A model generated the notes under the pieces. That model did not search any database. It worked only from the letters and a program-made list of their open reading frames with translations, and had not been told where the DNA came from. This document shows, piece by piece, positions 13,661-45,559 of a stretch of 64,000 bases of DNA. Positions within the stretch are counted from its first letter, which is position 1. Each line of letters starts with the position of its first letter. Made by a program: the position numbers and the translations under genes. The DNA comes from Tropicimonas marinistellae (GTDB lineage Bacteria; Pseudomonadota; Alphaproteobacteria; Rhodobacterales; Rhodobacteraceae): assembly GCF_001509585.1 (NCBI RefSeq), contig NZ_LNCI01000006.1:186001-250000 (forward strand). Direction: 5' to 3'.

Positions 13661-13712
13661 GGTGGGGGCCAGCCCCCACACCCCCGGGATATTTTCCGAC
13701 AGAAGAAGAGGC
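13661..13712 (+). repeat. Dispersed GC-hairpin / GGATATTT / ACAGAAGAAG element
   Basis: In the 163-bp gap between urtB and urtC, opposite to the genes, TGGGGGC-CA-GCCCCCA forms a hairpin, followed by CACCCCCGGGATATTTTC and CGACAGAAGAAGAGGC. The same order (GC hairpin, CCCCC, GGATATTT, ACAGAAGA) is the core of the 264-bp array near 44 kb, and a related copy lies at 25.4 kb on the minus strand. Function unknown; probably a REP-like intergenic repeat. Confidence 0.7.
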
Positions 13713-25357: not shown

Positions 25358-25414
25358 GCCTCTTCTGTCCGGAAATATCCTCGCCGAAGGCACGATCCCT
25401 CACCGAGGGATCGT
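25358..25414 (-). repeat. Second copy of the hairpin / GGATATTT / ACAGAAGA element, downstream of atoA
   Basis: On the minus strand, 28 bases after the atoA stop, a 10-bp perfect hairpin ACGATCCCTC-GGT-GAGGGATCGT is followed by GCCTTCGGCGAGGATATTTC and CGGACAGAAGAGGCG. The hairpin sequence differs from that at 13.7 and 44 kb, but the order and the GGATATTT and ACAGAAGA blocks are the same. It could act as the atoDA 3' end. No U tract. Confidence 0.6.
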
Positions 25415-39016: not shown

Positions 39017-40591
39017 ATGACCCGACAGGCGAATTCGACATTCCTGACCGCATTGCTGGCGGCCACCCTTTTCACCGCATTTCCCGTCACGGCCCAGCTG
39101 TCCGACGTTGAAACGAAGCAATACGACAACGGCGGCGTATACGAAGGCACATTCAAGGACGGGCTTCAGCATGGCACGGGCACCTACCGGTTGCCCAACG
39201 GCTACGAGTATTCCGGCGATTGGGTCGATGGCGAAATCCTCGGACAGGGAATCGCGCGGTTCCCGGACGGGTCCGTGTACGAGGGCAGCTTTGCCAAGGG
39301 CAAACCGCACGGTCAGGGCAAGATCACCTTCGCTGACGGCGGCACCTACGAGGGCGAATGGGTCGAGAACGAAATGACGGGAAAGGGCGTGGCGAACTAC
39401 GCGAACGGCGTGCGCTACGAAGGGGATTTCGTGAACGCCCTGCATGACGGGATTGGCACGATGACGGCGCCCACGGGCTACACCTACGAAGGCGAATGGG
39501 TTGCCGGCGTCAAGGAAGGCGCCGGCAAGATCACCTACCCCAATGGCGCGATCTACGAGGGCAACCTCAGCCGCGGGCTGCGTTCCGGTCAGGGCAAACT
39601 GACAATGGTGGACGGCCTCGTCTACGAAGGGTCATGGAAAGACGGCCAAATCAACGGGTTCGGCACCCTGACGCAATCCAACGGCGACGTTTACGAAGGG
39701 CTGCTCGTCAACGGCCAGCGCGAGGGAACCGGAAAGGTCACCTACGCGAACGGCGACATCTACGAAGGCGAGTTCCACGAAGACCGACGCCACGGCGAGG
39801 GCACATTCACCGGCACCGATGGCTATGTCTATGTGGGCGCTTGGTCCAACGGCAAGATCGAGGGGGAAGGCACGGTCGTCTACCCCGACGGGTCGGTCTA
39901 CGAAGGCGCTTTCCGCGACGATCAGCCGAACGGTAAAGGCAAGATCACCTATCCCGACGGCAATACCTACGAAGGCGATTGGGTCGATAGTGTCATCGAG
40001 GGCCAGGGGGTTGCCCGCTACGCCGATGGGCAAGTCTACGAAGGTGCGTTCAAGGATGCCCGCTACGACGGGTATGGCGTCATGACCTACCCGGATGGCT
40101 ACGTCTATGAAGGCGGCTGGGTCGCCGGCACCCGCCACGGTCAGGGAAAGGCGACCTACACGGACGGCAGTATCTACGAGGGCGAGTTCCGGGACGGACA
40201 GCGCACAGGTACAGGCACCCTCACGGCGCCGAGCGGTTTCGTCTACACCGGCGAGTGGCGCAACGGCGAGATGCAGGGCGAGGGTCTCGCGACCTATGTC
40301 AACGGAGACACCTACGAGGGCATGTTCGTTGCCGGCATGCCGCAGGGCGAAGGGCTCATGCGGTATTCCACCGGAGAGGTTCGTGCGGGCGAGTGGGAAA
40401 AGGGCGACCTTGTGAAATCCGACCCCGAAGCAGCCGCGCGGGCCGCAACTGATCAAGAGACTCAACCGGACACTGCGTCTGAATCCGCCCCTGACACCTC
40501 CGGAAACGCCCTTGACACGCAGGACGAAGCCAATGCCGGCGTCCCGGAGGAAGCGGCAGACACCGCAACGCCCGAAACCGTGACCGAGTGA
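39017..40591 (+). CDS. Exported MORN-repeat protein
   Basis: 524-aa protein. A signal peptide spans about residues 1-26 (FPVTAQ cleavage). Residues 39-452 are eighteen consecutive 23-residue MORN repeats of the form GxxYEGxWxxGxxxGxGxxxYPD, with a nineteenth degenerate half-repeat to about residue 465. The last 55 residues are acidic, low-complexity and rich in T, E, D and A. MORN arrays form long beta-hairpin rods that bind proteins or lipids; no enzymatic domain is present. Probably periplasmic or surface scaffold. It stands alone. Confidence 0.88.
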   Translation: MTRQANSTFLTALLAATLFTAFPVTAQLSDVETKQYDNGGVYEGTFKDGLQHGTGTYRLPNGYEYSGDWVDGEILGQGIARFPDGSVYEGSFAKGKPHGQGKITFADGGTYEGEWVENEMTGKGVANYANGVRYEGDFVNALHDGIGTMTAPTGYTYEGEWVAGVKEGAGKITYPNGAIYEGNLSRGLRSGQGKLTMVDGLVYEGSWKDGQINGFGTLTQSNGDVYEGLLVNGQREGTGKVTYANGDIYEGEFHEDRRHGEGTFTGTDGYVYVGAWSNGKIEGEGTVVYPDGSVYEGAFRDDQPNGKGKITYPDGNTYEGDWVDSVIEGQGVARYADGQVYEGAFKDARYDGYGVMTYPDGYVYEGGWVAGTRHGQGKATYTDGSIYEGEFRDGQRTGTGTLTAPSGFVYTGEWRNGEMQGEGLATYVNGDTYEGMFVAGMPQGEGLMRYSTGEVRAGEWEKGDLVKSDPEAAARAATDQETQPDTASESAPDTSGNALDTQDEANAGVPEEAADTATPETVTE

Positions 40592-41731: not shown

Positions 41732-43297
41732 ATGACGAACAGCCAAGACCGCGTGTTGATTTTCGACACGACCCTGCGTGACGGCGAGCAGAGCCCTGGC
41801 GCAACCATGACCCATGACGAGAAGCTGGAGATCGCCCAGCTGCTCGACGAGATGGGTGTGGACATTATCGAGGCCGGATTCCCCATTGCCTCCGAAGGCG
41901 ATTTCGAGGCGGTGCGCGACATTGCCGATGTCACGAAAAGTGCCGTGATCTGCGGATTGGCGCGCGCCAATTTCAAGGATATCGACCGCTGCTGGGAGGC
42001 GGTGCGCCATTCCGAGCGGCCGCGTATCCACACGTTCATCGGCACGTCCGAACTGCACCGCGCCATCCCGAACCTGACGATGGACGAGATGGCGGACCGG
42101 ATCCACGAGACGGTCACCCACGCCCGCAACCTCTGCGACAATGTGCAGTGGTCGCCGATGGATGCCACGCGGACCGAGCATGACTACCTGTGCCGCGTGG
42201 TCGAGATTGCCATCAAGGCGGGTGCCACGACCATCAACATCCCCGACACCGTCGGCTACACCGCGCCGCGGGAGAGCGCGGACCTGATCCGGATGCTGAT
42301 CGAGCGGGTGCCCGGCGCCGACGAGATCACCTTCGCCACGCACTGCCACAACGACCTCGGCATGGCAACGGCCAACGCGCTGGCAGCGGTGGAGGCGGGC
42401 GCGCGGCAAATCGAATGCACGATCAACGGGCTGGGCGAGCGTGCCGGGAATACCGCGCTGGAAGAGGTGGTCATGGCTATGAAAGTCCGCCATGACATCA
42501 TGCCCTACCATACCGGTATCGACACGCGGAAGATCATGAACATCTCCCGCCGGGTCGCGGACGTGTCCGGTTTCCAGGTGCAGTTCAACAAGGCGGTCGT
42601 GGGCAAGAACGCCTTCGCGCACGAGAGCGGCATTCACCAGGACGGGATGCTGAAGAACCCGCAGAACTTCGAGATCATGCGTCCCGAGGACGTGGGCCTC
42701 AGCGCGACCAACCTGGTGATGGGCAAGCATTCCGGCCGCGCCGCGCTGCGCGCCAAGCTGCATGACCTGGGCTACGACCTGGGCGACAACCAGCTGAAGG
42801 ACGTGTTTGTCCGCTTCAAGGAACTCGCCGACCGCAAGAAGGAGGTCTACGACGACGACCTGATCGCCCTGATGCGGGATGCCGGCTCGGAAGTGGACGA
42901 GAAGCTGAAGGTGAAGTTCCTGAGGGTCATCTGCGGCACGCAGGCGCCGCAATCGGCCGACCTGACGATGACCGTCGACGGGGTGGATCACATGGTCTCC
43001 GCCATGGGCGACGGGCCGGTGGATGCGACCTTCAACGCGGTGAAGCAGATCTTCCCGCACAACGCGCATCTGAAGCTCTACCAGGTTCATGCGGTGACGC
43101 GCGGGACCGACGCGCAGGCAACCGTGACGGTGCGGCTGGAGGAAGACGGGCGGATCGTCACCGGGCAGGCGGCGGACACCGACACGGTCGTGGCCTCGGC
43201 CAAGGCCTACGTGGCGGCGCTCAACCGGCTGATCGTGCGCCGGGCGAAGACCGGGACCGACGAGAAGGAAATCAGCTACCGCGACGTGGTGAACTGA
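41732..43297 (+). CDS. leuA: 2-isopropylmalate synthase
   Basis: 521-aa enzyme condensing acetyl-CoA with 2-oxoisovalerate, the first committed step of leucine synthesis. The TIM barrel carries DTTLRDGEQSPGATM and the metal motif ATHCHNDLGMATANALAA, then ECTINGLGERAGNTALEEVV. The C-terminal part (about 390-521) is the leucine-sensing regulatory domain. AAGGA lies upstream of ATG 41732. Preceded by a leucine-rich leader ORF and followed by a 13-bp hairpin. Confidence 0.96.
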   Translation: MTNSQDRVLIFDTTLRDGEQSPGATMTHDEKLEIAQLLDEMGVDIIEAGFPIASEGDFEAVRDIADVTKSAVICGLARANFKDIDRCWEAVRHSERPRIHTFIGTSELHRAIPNLTMDEMADRIHETVTHARNLCDNVQWSPMDATRTEHDYLCRVVEIAIKAGATTINIPDTVGYTAPRESADLIRMLIERVPGADEITFATHCHNDLGMATANALAAVEAGARQIECTINGLGERAGNTALEEVVMAMKVRHDIMPYHTGIDTRKIMNISRRVADVSGFQVQFNKAVVGKNAFAHESGIHQDGMLKNPQNFEIMRPEDVGLSATNLVMGKHSGRAALRAKLHDLGYDLGDNQLKDVFVRFKELADRKKEVYDDDLIALMRDAGSEVDEKLKVKFLRVICGTQAPQSADLTMTVDGVDHMVSAMGDGPVDATFNAVKQIFPHNAHLKLYQVHAVTRGTDAQATVTVRLEEDGRIVTGQAADTDTVVASAKAYVAALNRLIVRRAKTGTDEKEISYRDVVN

Positions 43298-43314
43298 TCC
43301 GCACAGGCGGCGGA

Positions 43315-43343
43315 GGGAGATGTCTCACGATGAGACATCTCCC
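43315..43343 (+). terminator. Strong hairpin after leuA
   Basis: GGGAGATGTCTCA and TGAGACATCTCCC form a perfect 13-bp stem with a CGA loop, 17 bases after the leuA stop. No T run follows (CAAGTCCACG), so it is either a Rho-assisted end or a 3' stabiliser. Confidence 0.6.
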
Positions 43344-43464
43344 CAAGTCCACGATTTCAACGGGTTAGCGGGACGGATTTAGGAGTCGTTAAGATTCCAG
43401 GCCGTCCGGGGTGCCGGTTTGGCACCGTTGAACGGGCGGCTGGGCGCGCGCCGTAACGGTTTCG

Positions 43465-44765
43465 ACCGGACCATACTGCCCGAGGCTCGAACCGCCGGCC
43501 GCTGTTTCGCATCCGAGGGGTTGGTGTCGCAAGACCGGTCCCCGGTCCTGCCCGGCGTGCGTGGCGGCGTGGCGCTGGATGCCGGGCGGGCCGGGTGCGG
43601 TGGTTGGGGGTTTCACCCCCAAACCCCCAGGATATTTGACGACAGAAGAAGGCAGGCGGCGGCGCGCAATGAGGCTGTTTCTCAGGCGGTTCGACCGCGT
43701 CGGCGGGGACCGGGTAGTTTCAAGGAAGCCTGCGGGGCTCGCCCCGGACTACTTGGCCCTATGCGTGAACCGCCGGTAGCTGTTTGCCGTCCGGGGGTTT
43801 GGTGACGCAGGGCCGGGGCGCGCGTGGCGGTTTGCCGTTGGATGCGGCGGCGGGTCGGGTGCGGCGGTTGGGGGTTTCACCCCCAAACCCCCAGGATATT
43901 TGACGACAGAAGAAGGCAGGCGGCGGCGCGCAATGAGGCTGTTTCTCAGGCGGTTCGACCGCGTCGGCGGGGACCGGGTAGTTTCAAGGAAGCCTGCGGG
44001 GCTCGCCCCGGACTACTTGGCCCTATGCGTGAACCGCCGGTAGCTGTTTGCCGTCCGGGGGTTTGGTGACGCAGGGCCGGGGCGCGCGTGGCGGTTTGCC
44101 GTTGGATGCGGCGGCGGGTCGGGTGCGGCGGTTGGGGGTTTCACCCCCAAACCCCCAGGATATTTGACGACAGAAGAAGGCAGGCGGCGGCGCGCAATGG
44201 GGCTGTTTCTCGGGCGGCTCGGGGTCACGGCCGGGGACCGGGTAGTTTCAAGGAAGCCTGCGGGACCCGCCCCGGACTATTTGGCCCTATGCGCAAACCG
44301 CCGGTCGCTGTTTGCCGTCCGGGGGTTTGGTGACGCAGGGCCGGGGCGCGCGGGGCGGTTTGCCGTTGGATGCAGGGGCGGGTCGGGTGCGGCGGTTGGG
44401 GGTTTCACCCCCAAACCCCCAGGATATTTGACGACAGAAGAAGGCAGGCGGCGGCGCGCAATGGGGCTGTTTCTCGGGCGGCTCGGGGTCACGGCCGGGG
44501 ACCGGGTAGTTTCAAGGAAGCCTGCGGGACCCGCCCCGGACTATTTGGCCCTATGCGCAAACCGCCGGTCGCTGTTTGCCGTCCGGGGGTTTGGTGACGC
44601 AGGGCCGGGGCGCGCGGGGCGGTTTGCCGTTGGATGCAGGGGCGGGTCGGGTGCGGCGGTTGGGGGTTTCACCCCCAAACCCCCAGGATATTTGACGACA
44701 GAAGAAGGCAGGCGGCGGCGCGAAATGGGGCTGTTTCTCGGGGCGTTCGGGGTCGCGGCCGGCGG
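43465..44765 (+). repeat. Tandem array of 264-bp repeats
   Basis: Full units start at 43631, 43895, 44159 and 44423, each exactly 264 bp from the last, with a decayed partial copy before (about 43465-43630) and after (44687 to about 44765). Each unit begins GATATTTGACGACAGAAG and ends in a hairpin TTGGGGG-TTTCA-CCCCCAA followed by ACCCCCAG. By eye units 1 and 2 are identical, units 3 and 4 are identical, and the pairs differ at about two dozen sites. Because 264 is divisible by three, long frames run through the repeats, but the frame open in units 3-4 has a stop in units 1-2, so they are not genes. The stretch between leuA (43297) and the GST (44921) holds nothing else I can support. Confidence 0.92.
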
Positions 44766-44920
44766 GGTCTTGTGCCGGTCGCGGCGCCGCCCGCGCGGCT
44801 GGCCGGGCAACGCCTGCGACGGCGATGGGGCCGCCGGGGAACCGGGCAAGCCGTCGCCGACGCTTGCCTGGCACGAACACGATCGTCTAGCGTTGGTCGC
44901 GCGCGCAGGATGGAGCGGAC

Positions 44921-45559
44921 ATGATAGATCTCTACACGTGGACAACGCCGAACGGCCGCAAAGTGTCCATCATGCTCGAAGAGCTTGGTGAGCCCTACGA
45001 GGTGCATCCGGTGGACCTCTCCCATGGCGACCAGCACAGCCCGGAGTTTCTGGCGATCGCGCCGTCAGGCAGGATTCCCGCGATCCGGGATCGCGACAGC
45101 GGCATGACGCTGATGGAATCGGGCGTGATCCTGCAGTGGCTCGCCGAAACGCGCGGGCGTTTTCTTCCGGCCGGCCGCGAGCGCTGGAAGGCGCTGGAAT
45201 GGTGCTACTGGCAGGTGGGCCAGCTTGGCCCGTTTCTCGGCCAGGCGCACCAGGTGCTGAAATACAACCGGGGCCGGACAGCGGAGTCCGAGCAGAAATG
45301 CCGCGAACAGGTCGCCCGCGTCTACGCGACACTGGATGCGCGGCTGAGAGGGCGGAGCTATATCGCCGGAGCGGGAACCGGCGAGTATTCCATCGCCGAC
45401 ATCCTGACATGGCCCTGGGTAAGCCGGTTCGAGTGGCACCAGGCCGACCTGGCGGATTACCCCGCGGTGCGCGACTGGTATTTGAGAATCGCCGACCGGC
45501 CCGCCGTTCAGGCCGGCTACCGGCAGCCGCATTACGTAAATGACGTGCCGCTGCCCTAG
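44921..45559 (+). CDS. Glutathione S-transferase, YfcG-like (Nu class)
   Basis: 212-aa GST with the N-terminal TPNGRKVSIMLEELG motif of YfcG-type disulfide reductases, then SPEFLAIAPSGRIPAI, and C-terminal GEYSIADILTWPWVSRFEW. These proteins reduce disulfides with two bound glutathiones. Its ATG lies just after the 264-bp repeat array. Cytosolic. Confidence 0.88.
   Translation: MIDLYTWTTPNGRKVSIMLEELGEPYEVHPVDLSHGDQHSPEFLAIAPSGRIPAIRDRDSGMTLMESGVILQWLAETRGRFLPAGRERWKALEWCYWQVGQLGPFLGQAHQVLKYNRGRTAESEQKCREQVARVYATLDARLRGRSYIAGAGTGEYSIADILTWPWVSRFEWHQADLADYPAVRDWYLRIADRPAVQAGYRQPHYVNDVPLP

Follow-up and report, generated by a model that had tools for sequence, protein, structure and literature searches.

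The intergenic region downstream of leuA in Tropicimonas marinistellae is occupied by a sequence that repeats with a strict period, which raises the question of what the repeated unit is, how it came to be multiplied and whether any part of it occurs outside this locus. We studied a window of 64,000 nucleotides, which corresponds to positions 186001-250000 of contig C38 in a draft assembly of 5.42 Mb and 41 contigs, and compared it with other genomes of the genus and the family. In the account that we prefer, an intergenic segment with a single copy of a dispersed element was amplified locally to give the array, and this element is a candidate recognition site. We assign this account as a whole a probability of roughly 0.6.

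A 264-bp tandem array downstream of leuA

The leuA gene, coding for 2-isopropylmalate synthase (41732..43297, plus strand; Pfam matches to HMGL-like, LeuA_dimer and HCS_D2), is separated by a gap of 1623 bp from a glutathione S-transferase (GST)-like gene (44921..45559, plus strand), which was assigned by Pfam and by comparison with congeners. The gap runs from the leuA stop at 43297 to the GST-like start at 44921. Directly after leuA, an inverted-repeat search found a perfect 13-bp inverted repeat with a 3-nt loop (43315..43343), which lacks a T-run and is perhaps where the leuA transcript ends. Upstream of leuA, positions 39017-40591 encode a protein of 524 residues in which 13 stretches match MORN repeats.

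Tandem Repeats Finder places the array at 43554-44762, with a period of 264, 4.6 copies, 96% matches, 0% indels and a score of 2057. By unit alignment, four full units lie on the plus strand in the order A, A, B, B. Units 1 (43604..43867) and 2 (43868..44131) are of type A and equal each other across all 264 bases, as do units 3 (44132..44395) and 4 (44396..44659), which are of type B. Types A and B are distinguished by 20 of 264 sites, none of which falls within the first 68 bases; this sameness is weak evidence, with P about 0.05 when neighboring changes are merged. The right edge is a partial fifth unit (44660..44762) that stops near 44762. At the left edge (43466..43603, plus strand) is a decayed copy of the spacer, in which 73 nt (43466-43538) are 74-77% identical to the units at a spacing of 278 instead of 264, and thus 14 bases out of phase. 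The tandem array described by the initial annotation is therefore real, with its strict period and four full units; of the two decayed edge copies that it listed, the left one stands, and the right one is the partial fifth unit.

Copy number was read from the assembly, in which identical 264-bp units may be miscounted. An assembly artefact, affecting either the array itself or its copy number, would fit a draft genome of 41 contigs and units that are pairwise identical. However, the array sits within a 407-kb contig, its A and B types differ from each other and its edges are partly decayed, and we consider an artefact very improbable.

Within the gap (43297-44921), our home-made gene finder called no gene, and two open reading frames (ORFs) of the array have no Pfam match. 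Codon scores of the unit are negative in six of six frames, and the codon differences between types A and B amount to 10-12 non-synonymous versus 2-4 synonymous changes per frame. One frame of the array does contain an ORF of 275 codons (44164-44991), but it exists because 264 is a multiple of three and because type B lacks a stop that type A has there. On these grounds a protein-coding array was rejected, and the earlier judgment that the frames are not conserved and that selection on protein is unlikely is borne out.

The initial annotation had also raised the possibility of a structured RNA array. A tandem array of structured RNA genes would agree with a repeated unit that bears inverted repeats, but we consider this reading scarcely credible. 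In 43280-44930, no Rfam family matched at E up to 1, and comparison of the unit's fold with those of shuffled sequences yielded z-scores of -0.85 and -0.92, which are nothing unusual. No consensus sigma-70-like promoter, the one promoter type that the search covered, was found in the array region. In addition, the spacer was not found elsewhere in the genus (among the best 40 candidates per genome), in phages or in plasmids.

To place the array among relatives, we compared the leuA neighborhoods of eight congeners, all of which carry leuA with a protein identity of 92-95%. The unit, its spacer and the gap have no BLAST match (E 0.01) in the 10-11.5 kb around leuA in any of the eight. In these stretches leuA is followed by mreB in seven of eight congeners, with an mscS-like gene between in three of eight; none of the eight has the window's GST-like gene in the leuA-mreB stretch (10-11.5 kb). 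Among four best GST-like matches in congeners whose surroundings were examined, none has leuA beside it. The leuA-mreB interval is rearranged in T. marinistellae. The full 264-bp unit has no second place in nine genomes of the genus when the best 40 candidates per genome are scored, and it has no match in phage records; the whole leuA-GST gap has no match in plasmid records. A phage or plasmid origin of the unit was therefore rejected.

Because the unit was not found around leuA in congeners, elsewhere in the genus or in phages, and the gap was not found in plasmids, we regard the array as a local amplification of this lineage, and very probably as intergenic DNA that was duplicated in tandem specifically in this lineage. 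Among the nine genus genomes searched, the array occurs in this species only, and the amplified intergenic segment carries one copy of a dispersed element. The term "amplified intergenic repeat", one of the options first proposed, is thus apt for the non-coding 264-bp unit. The array copies might have been born by unequal recombination or replication slippage, with hairpins helping. From the order A, A, B, B, an A-B pair would seem to have come first, with a later doubling of each member, and the spacer of about 200 bp would be a passenger.

A dispersed element inside the unit

Each unit holds one element of about 48 bp, which consists of a G-run hairpin, a second C-run and then GGATATTTNNNGACAGAAGAAG. 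Its wording here is TTGGGGG-TTTCA-CCCCCAA-ACCCCCA-GGATATTT-GAC-GACAGAAGAAG. The elements start at 43604, 43868, 44132, 44396 and 44660, a spacing of exactly 264 (43604-43651, 43868-43915, 44132-44179, 44396-44443 and 44660-44707). In unit 1, motif searches place the 22-bp bipartite motif GGATATTT-NNN-GACAGAAGAAG at 43630..43651 on the plus strand, and it has the same place in each unit. Matches of the unit elsewhere are confined to its first 65 bases. The GC hairpin and the GGATATTT and ACAGAAGAAG blocks that the initial annotation attributed to each unit are present; however, together they form one dispersed element, whose dispersal that annotation did not see.

With up to three mismatches, the 22-bp block has six matches in the window, five of them exact and in the array and one, at 13687, with two mismatches; 100 shuffles gave none. 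A dispersed copy of the element occupies 13661..13708 (plus strand), and a dispersed copy of the 22-bp motif with one mismatch occupies 25359..25380 (minus strand; contig position 211359). Across the whole T. marinistellae genome, the pattern GGATATTTN{0,14}AGAAGAAG has 29 sites, that is, five in the array and 24 elsewhere, and a reversed control pattern has none. All 29 share the same six-base gap, ending in GAC, before AGAAGAAG, although neither feature is demanded by the pattern.

Two surveys were conducted within the window's own family only, with its own genome included. The wording of T. marinistellae, with one mismatch allowed, was found in 48 of 292 genomes. A degenerate pattern was found in 132 of 244 genomes, which represent 67 of 101 genera, at up to 107 copies per genome, and its control matched once in all. 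The degenerate pattern has no match in the remaining 112 of the 244 genomes, which can thus do without the element or without this wording of it. In genomes of the same class outside the family, nine sites in 8 of 140 genomes compare with six control sites; in these 140 genomes the pattern thus occurs no more often than by chance. Clades have wordings of their own, for example GAGTATTTNNNCCAAGATGAAG, GAGTATTTNNNAACAGAAGAAG and GGATATTTNNNGCCAGAAGAAG, and the records that carry the same motif include Mameliella, Antarctobacter, Maritimibacter, Tranquillimonas and Paracoccus.

A locus scan for the motif gave at least 112 stretches, of which 80 were listed as loci. A record titled Enemella evansiae, which we take to be an actinobacterial name, accounts for 12 of 80 loci listed (L141, L149, L158, L164, L169, L170, L175, L184, L194, L197, L198 and L203), and its assembly is probably mislabelled or mixed. 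The counts given below for "named" loci drop L135, L141, L188, L193, L202 and L208 as not Rhodobacteraceae, judged by record title, which is inconsistent for L141, given that 11 Enemella loci with the same title were kept. In plasmid records, a 60-bp query had four matches, all in Leisingera. In the two of these plasmids whose annotation was examined, the element lies outside any annotated gene, between the acetoacetate/3-keto-5-aminohexanoate pair and the carnitine 3-dehydrogenase gene, and the neighboring genes are co-directional. Among the viral contigs scanned, three contain the motif. A Paracoccus metagenome-assembled genome has two motif copies back to back, about 87 bases apart and with unusual flanks (L153:1003-1133 and L190:4625-4754); this pair resembles a small terminal-inverted-repeat element in which the same motif is used.

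Among 106 copies, five array copies included, the 5' flank ends in a C-run before GGATATTT in 70, is GCCTCCGGCGG or a near equal in 27 and has neither form in nine; 66 of the 70 C-run copies also have an upstream G-run and a first C-run. A strict parse into G-run, C-run and C-run succeeds for 61 of 101 copies and fails for 40, with array copies left out of these parsing counts as well as of the consensus (24, 77 and 30 copies). The two C-runs match in length in 54 of the 61 parsed copies, where permutation gives a mean of 32. The G-run is as long as the first C-run in 49 copies and as long as the second in 47, against 28 and 27 expected. The C-runs are separated by a short linker or by a second hairpin. 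Among 40 longer inserts, with 38 different sequences, 30 contain a perfect stem of five or more pairs, whereas the shuffled mean is 3.3. The G-run may thus form a stem with either of the C-runs.

At one orthologous site in two genomes (L334 and L331, in G189 and G293), the second stem differs in sequence and, judged by eye, pairs in both, while the flanks are about 95% identical; this suggests fast exchange or conversion of the second hairpin there. The NNN gap is not free everywhere, as it is TTG in 18 of 30 copies in genus g21.

Orientation, genomic place and inheritance of the element

Third positions of genes on the same strand as the element are richer in G and poorer in C than those of genes on the other strand in 11 of 11 locus groups (127 loci). 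The pooled difference in third-position G (G3) is 0.060, against a null standard deviation of 0.010, and none of 2000 random flips gave a difference as large. Genomes G189 and G293 show the same G3 direction as the 11 groups. These groups follow record titles, loci with sites in both orientations are left out of the strand tests, and the group of the window's own species includes the array locus L033. Divided by gene context (137 loci), the effect has the same direction in all four classes, namely co-directional genes in either orientation (46 and 35 loci), convergent genes (42) and divergent genes (14), for which 0, 16, 0 and 0 of 1000 flips, respectively, were as large. The strand bias is therefore not a by-product of gene direction.

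In most bacteria, G-rich third positions mark the leading strand. The element thus shows a preference, not a strict rule, for the leading strand regardless of gene direction, and its hairpin-forming strand would then be the lagging-strand template. G-skew was the sole basis for assigning strand here, and related species contribute loci that are not independent. Sampled skew maps agree with 30 of 39 sites for G034 (P 0.001; exact and one-mismatch sites) and with 18 of 27 for G189 (P 0.12, not significant; exact sites). The array itself was expected to follow this bias, an expectation that was refuted: in all 10 bins of contig C38, it is the genes on the minus strand that have the higher G3, which makes the plus strand, where the five array elements lie, the non-preferred one. 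In the first 400 kb of this contig, four of seven non-array sites are on the minus strand, and so follow the bias.

According to our home-made gene finder, with the longest start taken, 82 of 114 copies are intergenic. Of these 82, 29 lie between convergent genes and nine between divergent genes, and those between co-directional genes are divided 23 versus 21 between the two orientations. Given this division, and the presence of the bias in every context, we dropped the notion that gene direction alone sets the orientation. The context counts drop sites less than 1 kb from a locus end, and the group of the window's own species has two entries from L033.

The dispersed copy at 13661-13708 is present at the same site in four of eight congeners, and the other four have different sequence there. 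Across the five genomes that carry it, GGATATTT is unchanged in all five, NNN is represented by five different triplets, and the GACAGAAGAAG block has one to three changes in three. By eye, the hairpin arms have changed together across the genomes. Two close species, G033 and G034, were compared at 28 distinct sites (30 rows, in which two pairs appear in both directions). All 28 are occupied in these two species, with no empty site, and one is degenerate in G033. The exceptions to conservation are a one-base length change in the motif (L125/L390) and a core mismatch (L115/L385). Identity is 278/285 and 284/285 for the core, 43/45 and 42/45 for NNN, and 98.1% and 96.8% for coding flanks; core and flank divergence between these species is too small to prove selection. 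The comparisons show an element that is evidently inherited at the sites examined, and that looks constrained in sequence and in pairing.

Possible roles of the element and competing explanations

Any function of the element we infer from its sequence and distribution. The constant blocks, the changeable three-letter gap and the preferred replication strand hint that something in the cell recognizes it, and the element behaves like a constrained recognition site, unlike what would be expected of freshly copied DNA. Our leading, although tentative, proposal for its role is that it is a site at which a sequence-specific protein reads the DNA. The protein-binding array raised by the initial annotation may be apt in this form, applied to the element of about 48 bp inside the unit and not to the 264-bp unit. 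The candidate reader protein would co-evolve with the wording of the element in each clade. Reading would most plausibly occur on the single-stranded lagging-strand template, which in the preferred orientation carries the hairpin-forming strand. The array would merely multiply recognition sites and may be without effect.

The strongest competing explanation is that a single-strand transposase moves the element as a REP-like repeat. In that case the element would be a small non-autonomous mobile repeat, either REP/REPIN or IS200/IS605-derived, and the array would be a tandem REPIN-like cluster. The accessible text of one report describes, in Pseudomonas fluorescens SBW25, ordered tandem clusters of nearly identical REPINs with their flanks, of which the largest contains four REPINs and one REP in over 700 bp (PMC3116915). 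The array resembles these clusters in consisting of intergenic hairpin repeats in tandem, near-identical copies that include flanking sequence. Strand bias could also result from mobility through insertion into the lagging-strand template, given that two Y1 transposases are described, in the portion of the source consulted, as inserting into and excising from this template (PMC6006769). The hairpins, the single wording shared by elements of one genome and the head-to-head inverted pairs at some loci agree with a mobile repeat as well. An inverted partner with up to five mismatches occurs within 150 nt downstream of 2 of 24 copies in T. marinistellae, 14 of 76 named copies (some of the 14 being weak) and 1 of 30 copies in g21, and upstream of 4 of 76 named copies, compared with none in one shuffle each.

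However, a search for the Y1 transposase family (RAYT, PF01797) gave no match in the T. marinistellae genome, whereas the control search was positive in 5 of 14 genomes, and membership in a RAYT/REP system was therefore rejected for this genome. Nor does the consensus of 24, 77 and 30 copies include a constant tetranucleotide of the GTAG/CGTC type at the foot of the hairpin, although, in the text available, some RAYT classes also lack GT[AG]G (PMC6006769). Unlike the SBW25 REPINs, the element forms inverted pairs in a minority of cases, and a bipartite 22-bp motif follows its hairpin. That NNN differs between orthologues, and that the 28 sites of G033 and G034 are filled in both of these admittedly close species, also speak against mobility. 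We consider a mobile repeat unlikely, though still a serious candidate. GTAG- and CGTC-tagged palindromic repeats (PMC3733652) are likewise small, palindromic and dispersed, but the element has no such tag; in that paper's main text, Rhodobacter, Paracoccus, Ruegeria and Alphaproteobacteria do not occur. In the part consulted, a paper on stem-loop families places Brucella and Rickettsia under alpha-proteobacteria. No published description of the element was found among the matches listed in open-licence PMC papers, and it may still be known. With this qualification, the array appears to be a lineage-specific amplification around one copy of a REP-like element for which these papers gave no description.

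The element could instead be a structure at transcript 3' ends, either a terminator or an RNase barrier, with the array a stack of such structures behind leuA. GC hairpins, and the excess of convergent over divergent neighbors (29 versus 9 of 82 intergenic sites), would suit this role. Nevertheless, it is found in either orientation between co-directional genes (23 versus 21, and 46 versus 35 in an overlapping set), the strand bias persists in every gene context and leuA is followed, before the array begins, by an inverted repeat of its own. Moreover, GC stems followed by a T-run number zero in 43200-45000, against 2.3 expected in shuffles, and intrinsic terminators were thus rejected. We regard a 3'-end role as improbable.

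The most specific form of the preferred reading, a recognition site on DNA, is that the element serves as a previously undescribed, family-wide signal of the replicating chromosome, in which a two-state hairpin on the lagging-strand template, its G-tract pairing with either of two C-tracts of equal length, is combined with a co-evolving bipartite protein site. Such a signal might act in replication restart or priming, in fork pausing or in the orientation of chromosome arms, and in T. marinistellae it would have been amplified five-fold at one locus. In this specific form we find the proposal rather doubtful. The known systems closest to it are KOPS, small oriented repeats that are read by FtsK, and AIMS, whose orientation is likewise tied to the replication strand, according to the portions of the sources consulted (PMC5993296, PMC7901474). 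A leading-strand bias of this type is present in the element as a skew-inferred tendency, with the array copies excepted. In contrast to these systems, the element has tens of copies per genome, is mostly intergenic and shows a bias well below strict; AIMS are 8-bp sequences, according to the same portions, whereas the element joins a 22-bp motif to a hairpin.

Taken by itself, the array amounts to a stutter at one locus of one genome. The element that it carries is common to about half of the sampled Rhodobacteraceae (132 of 244 genomes). If the element has a reader, then that reader and its site would be a missing piece of chromosome biology in this family; if it is instead a mobile repeat without a known transposase, it would widen what REP-like elements can be.
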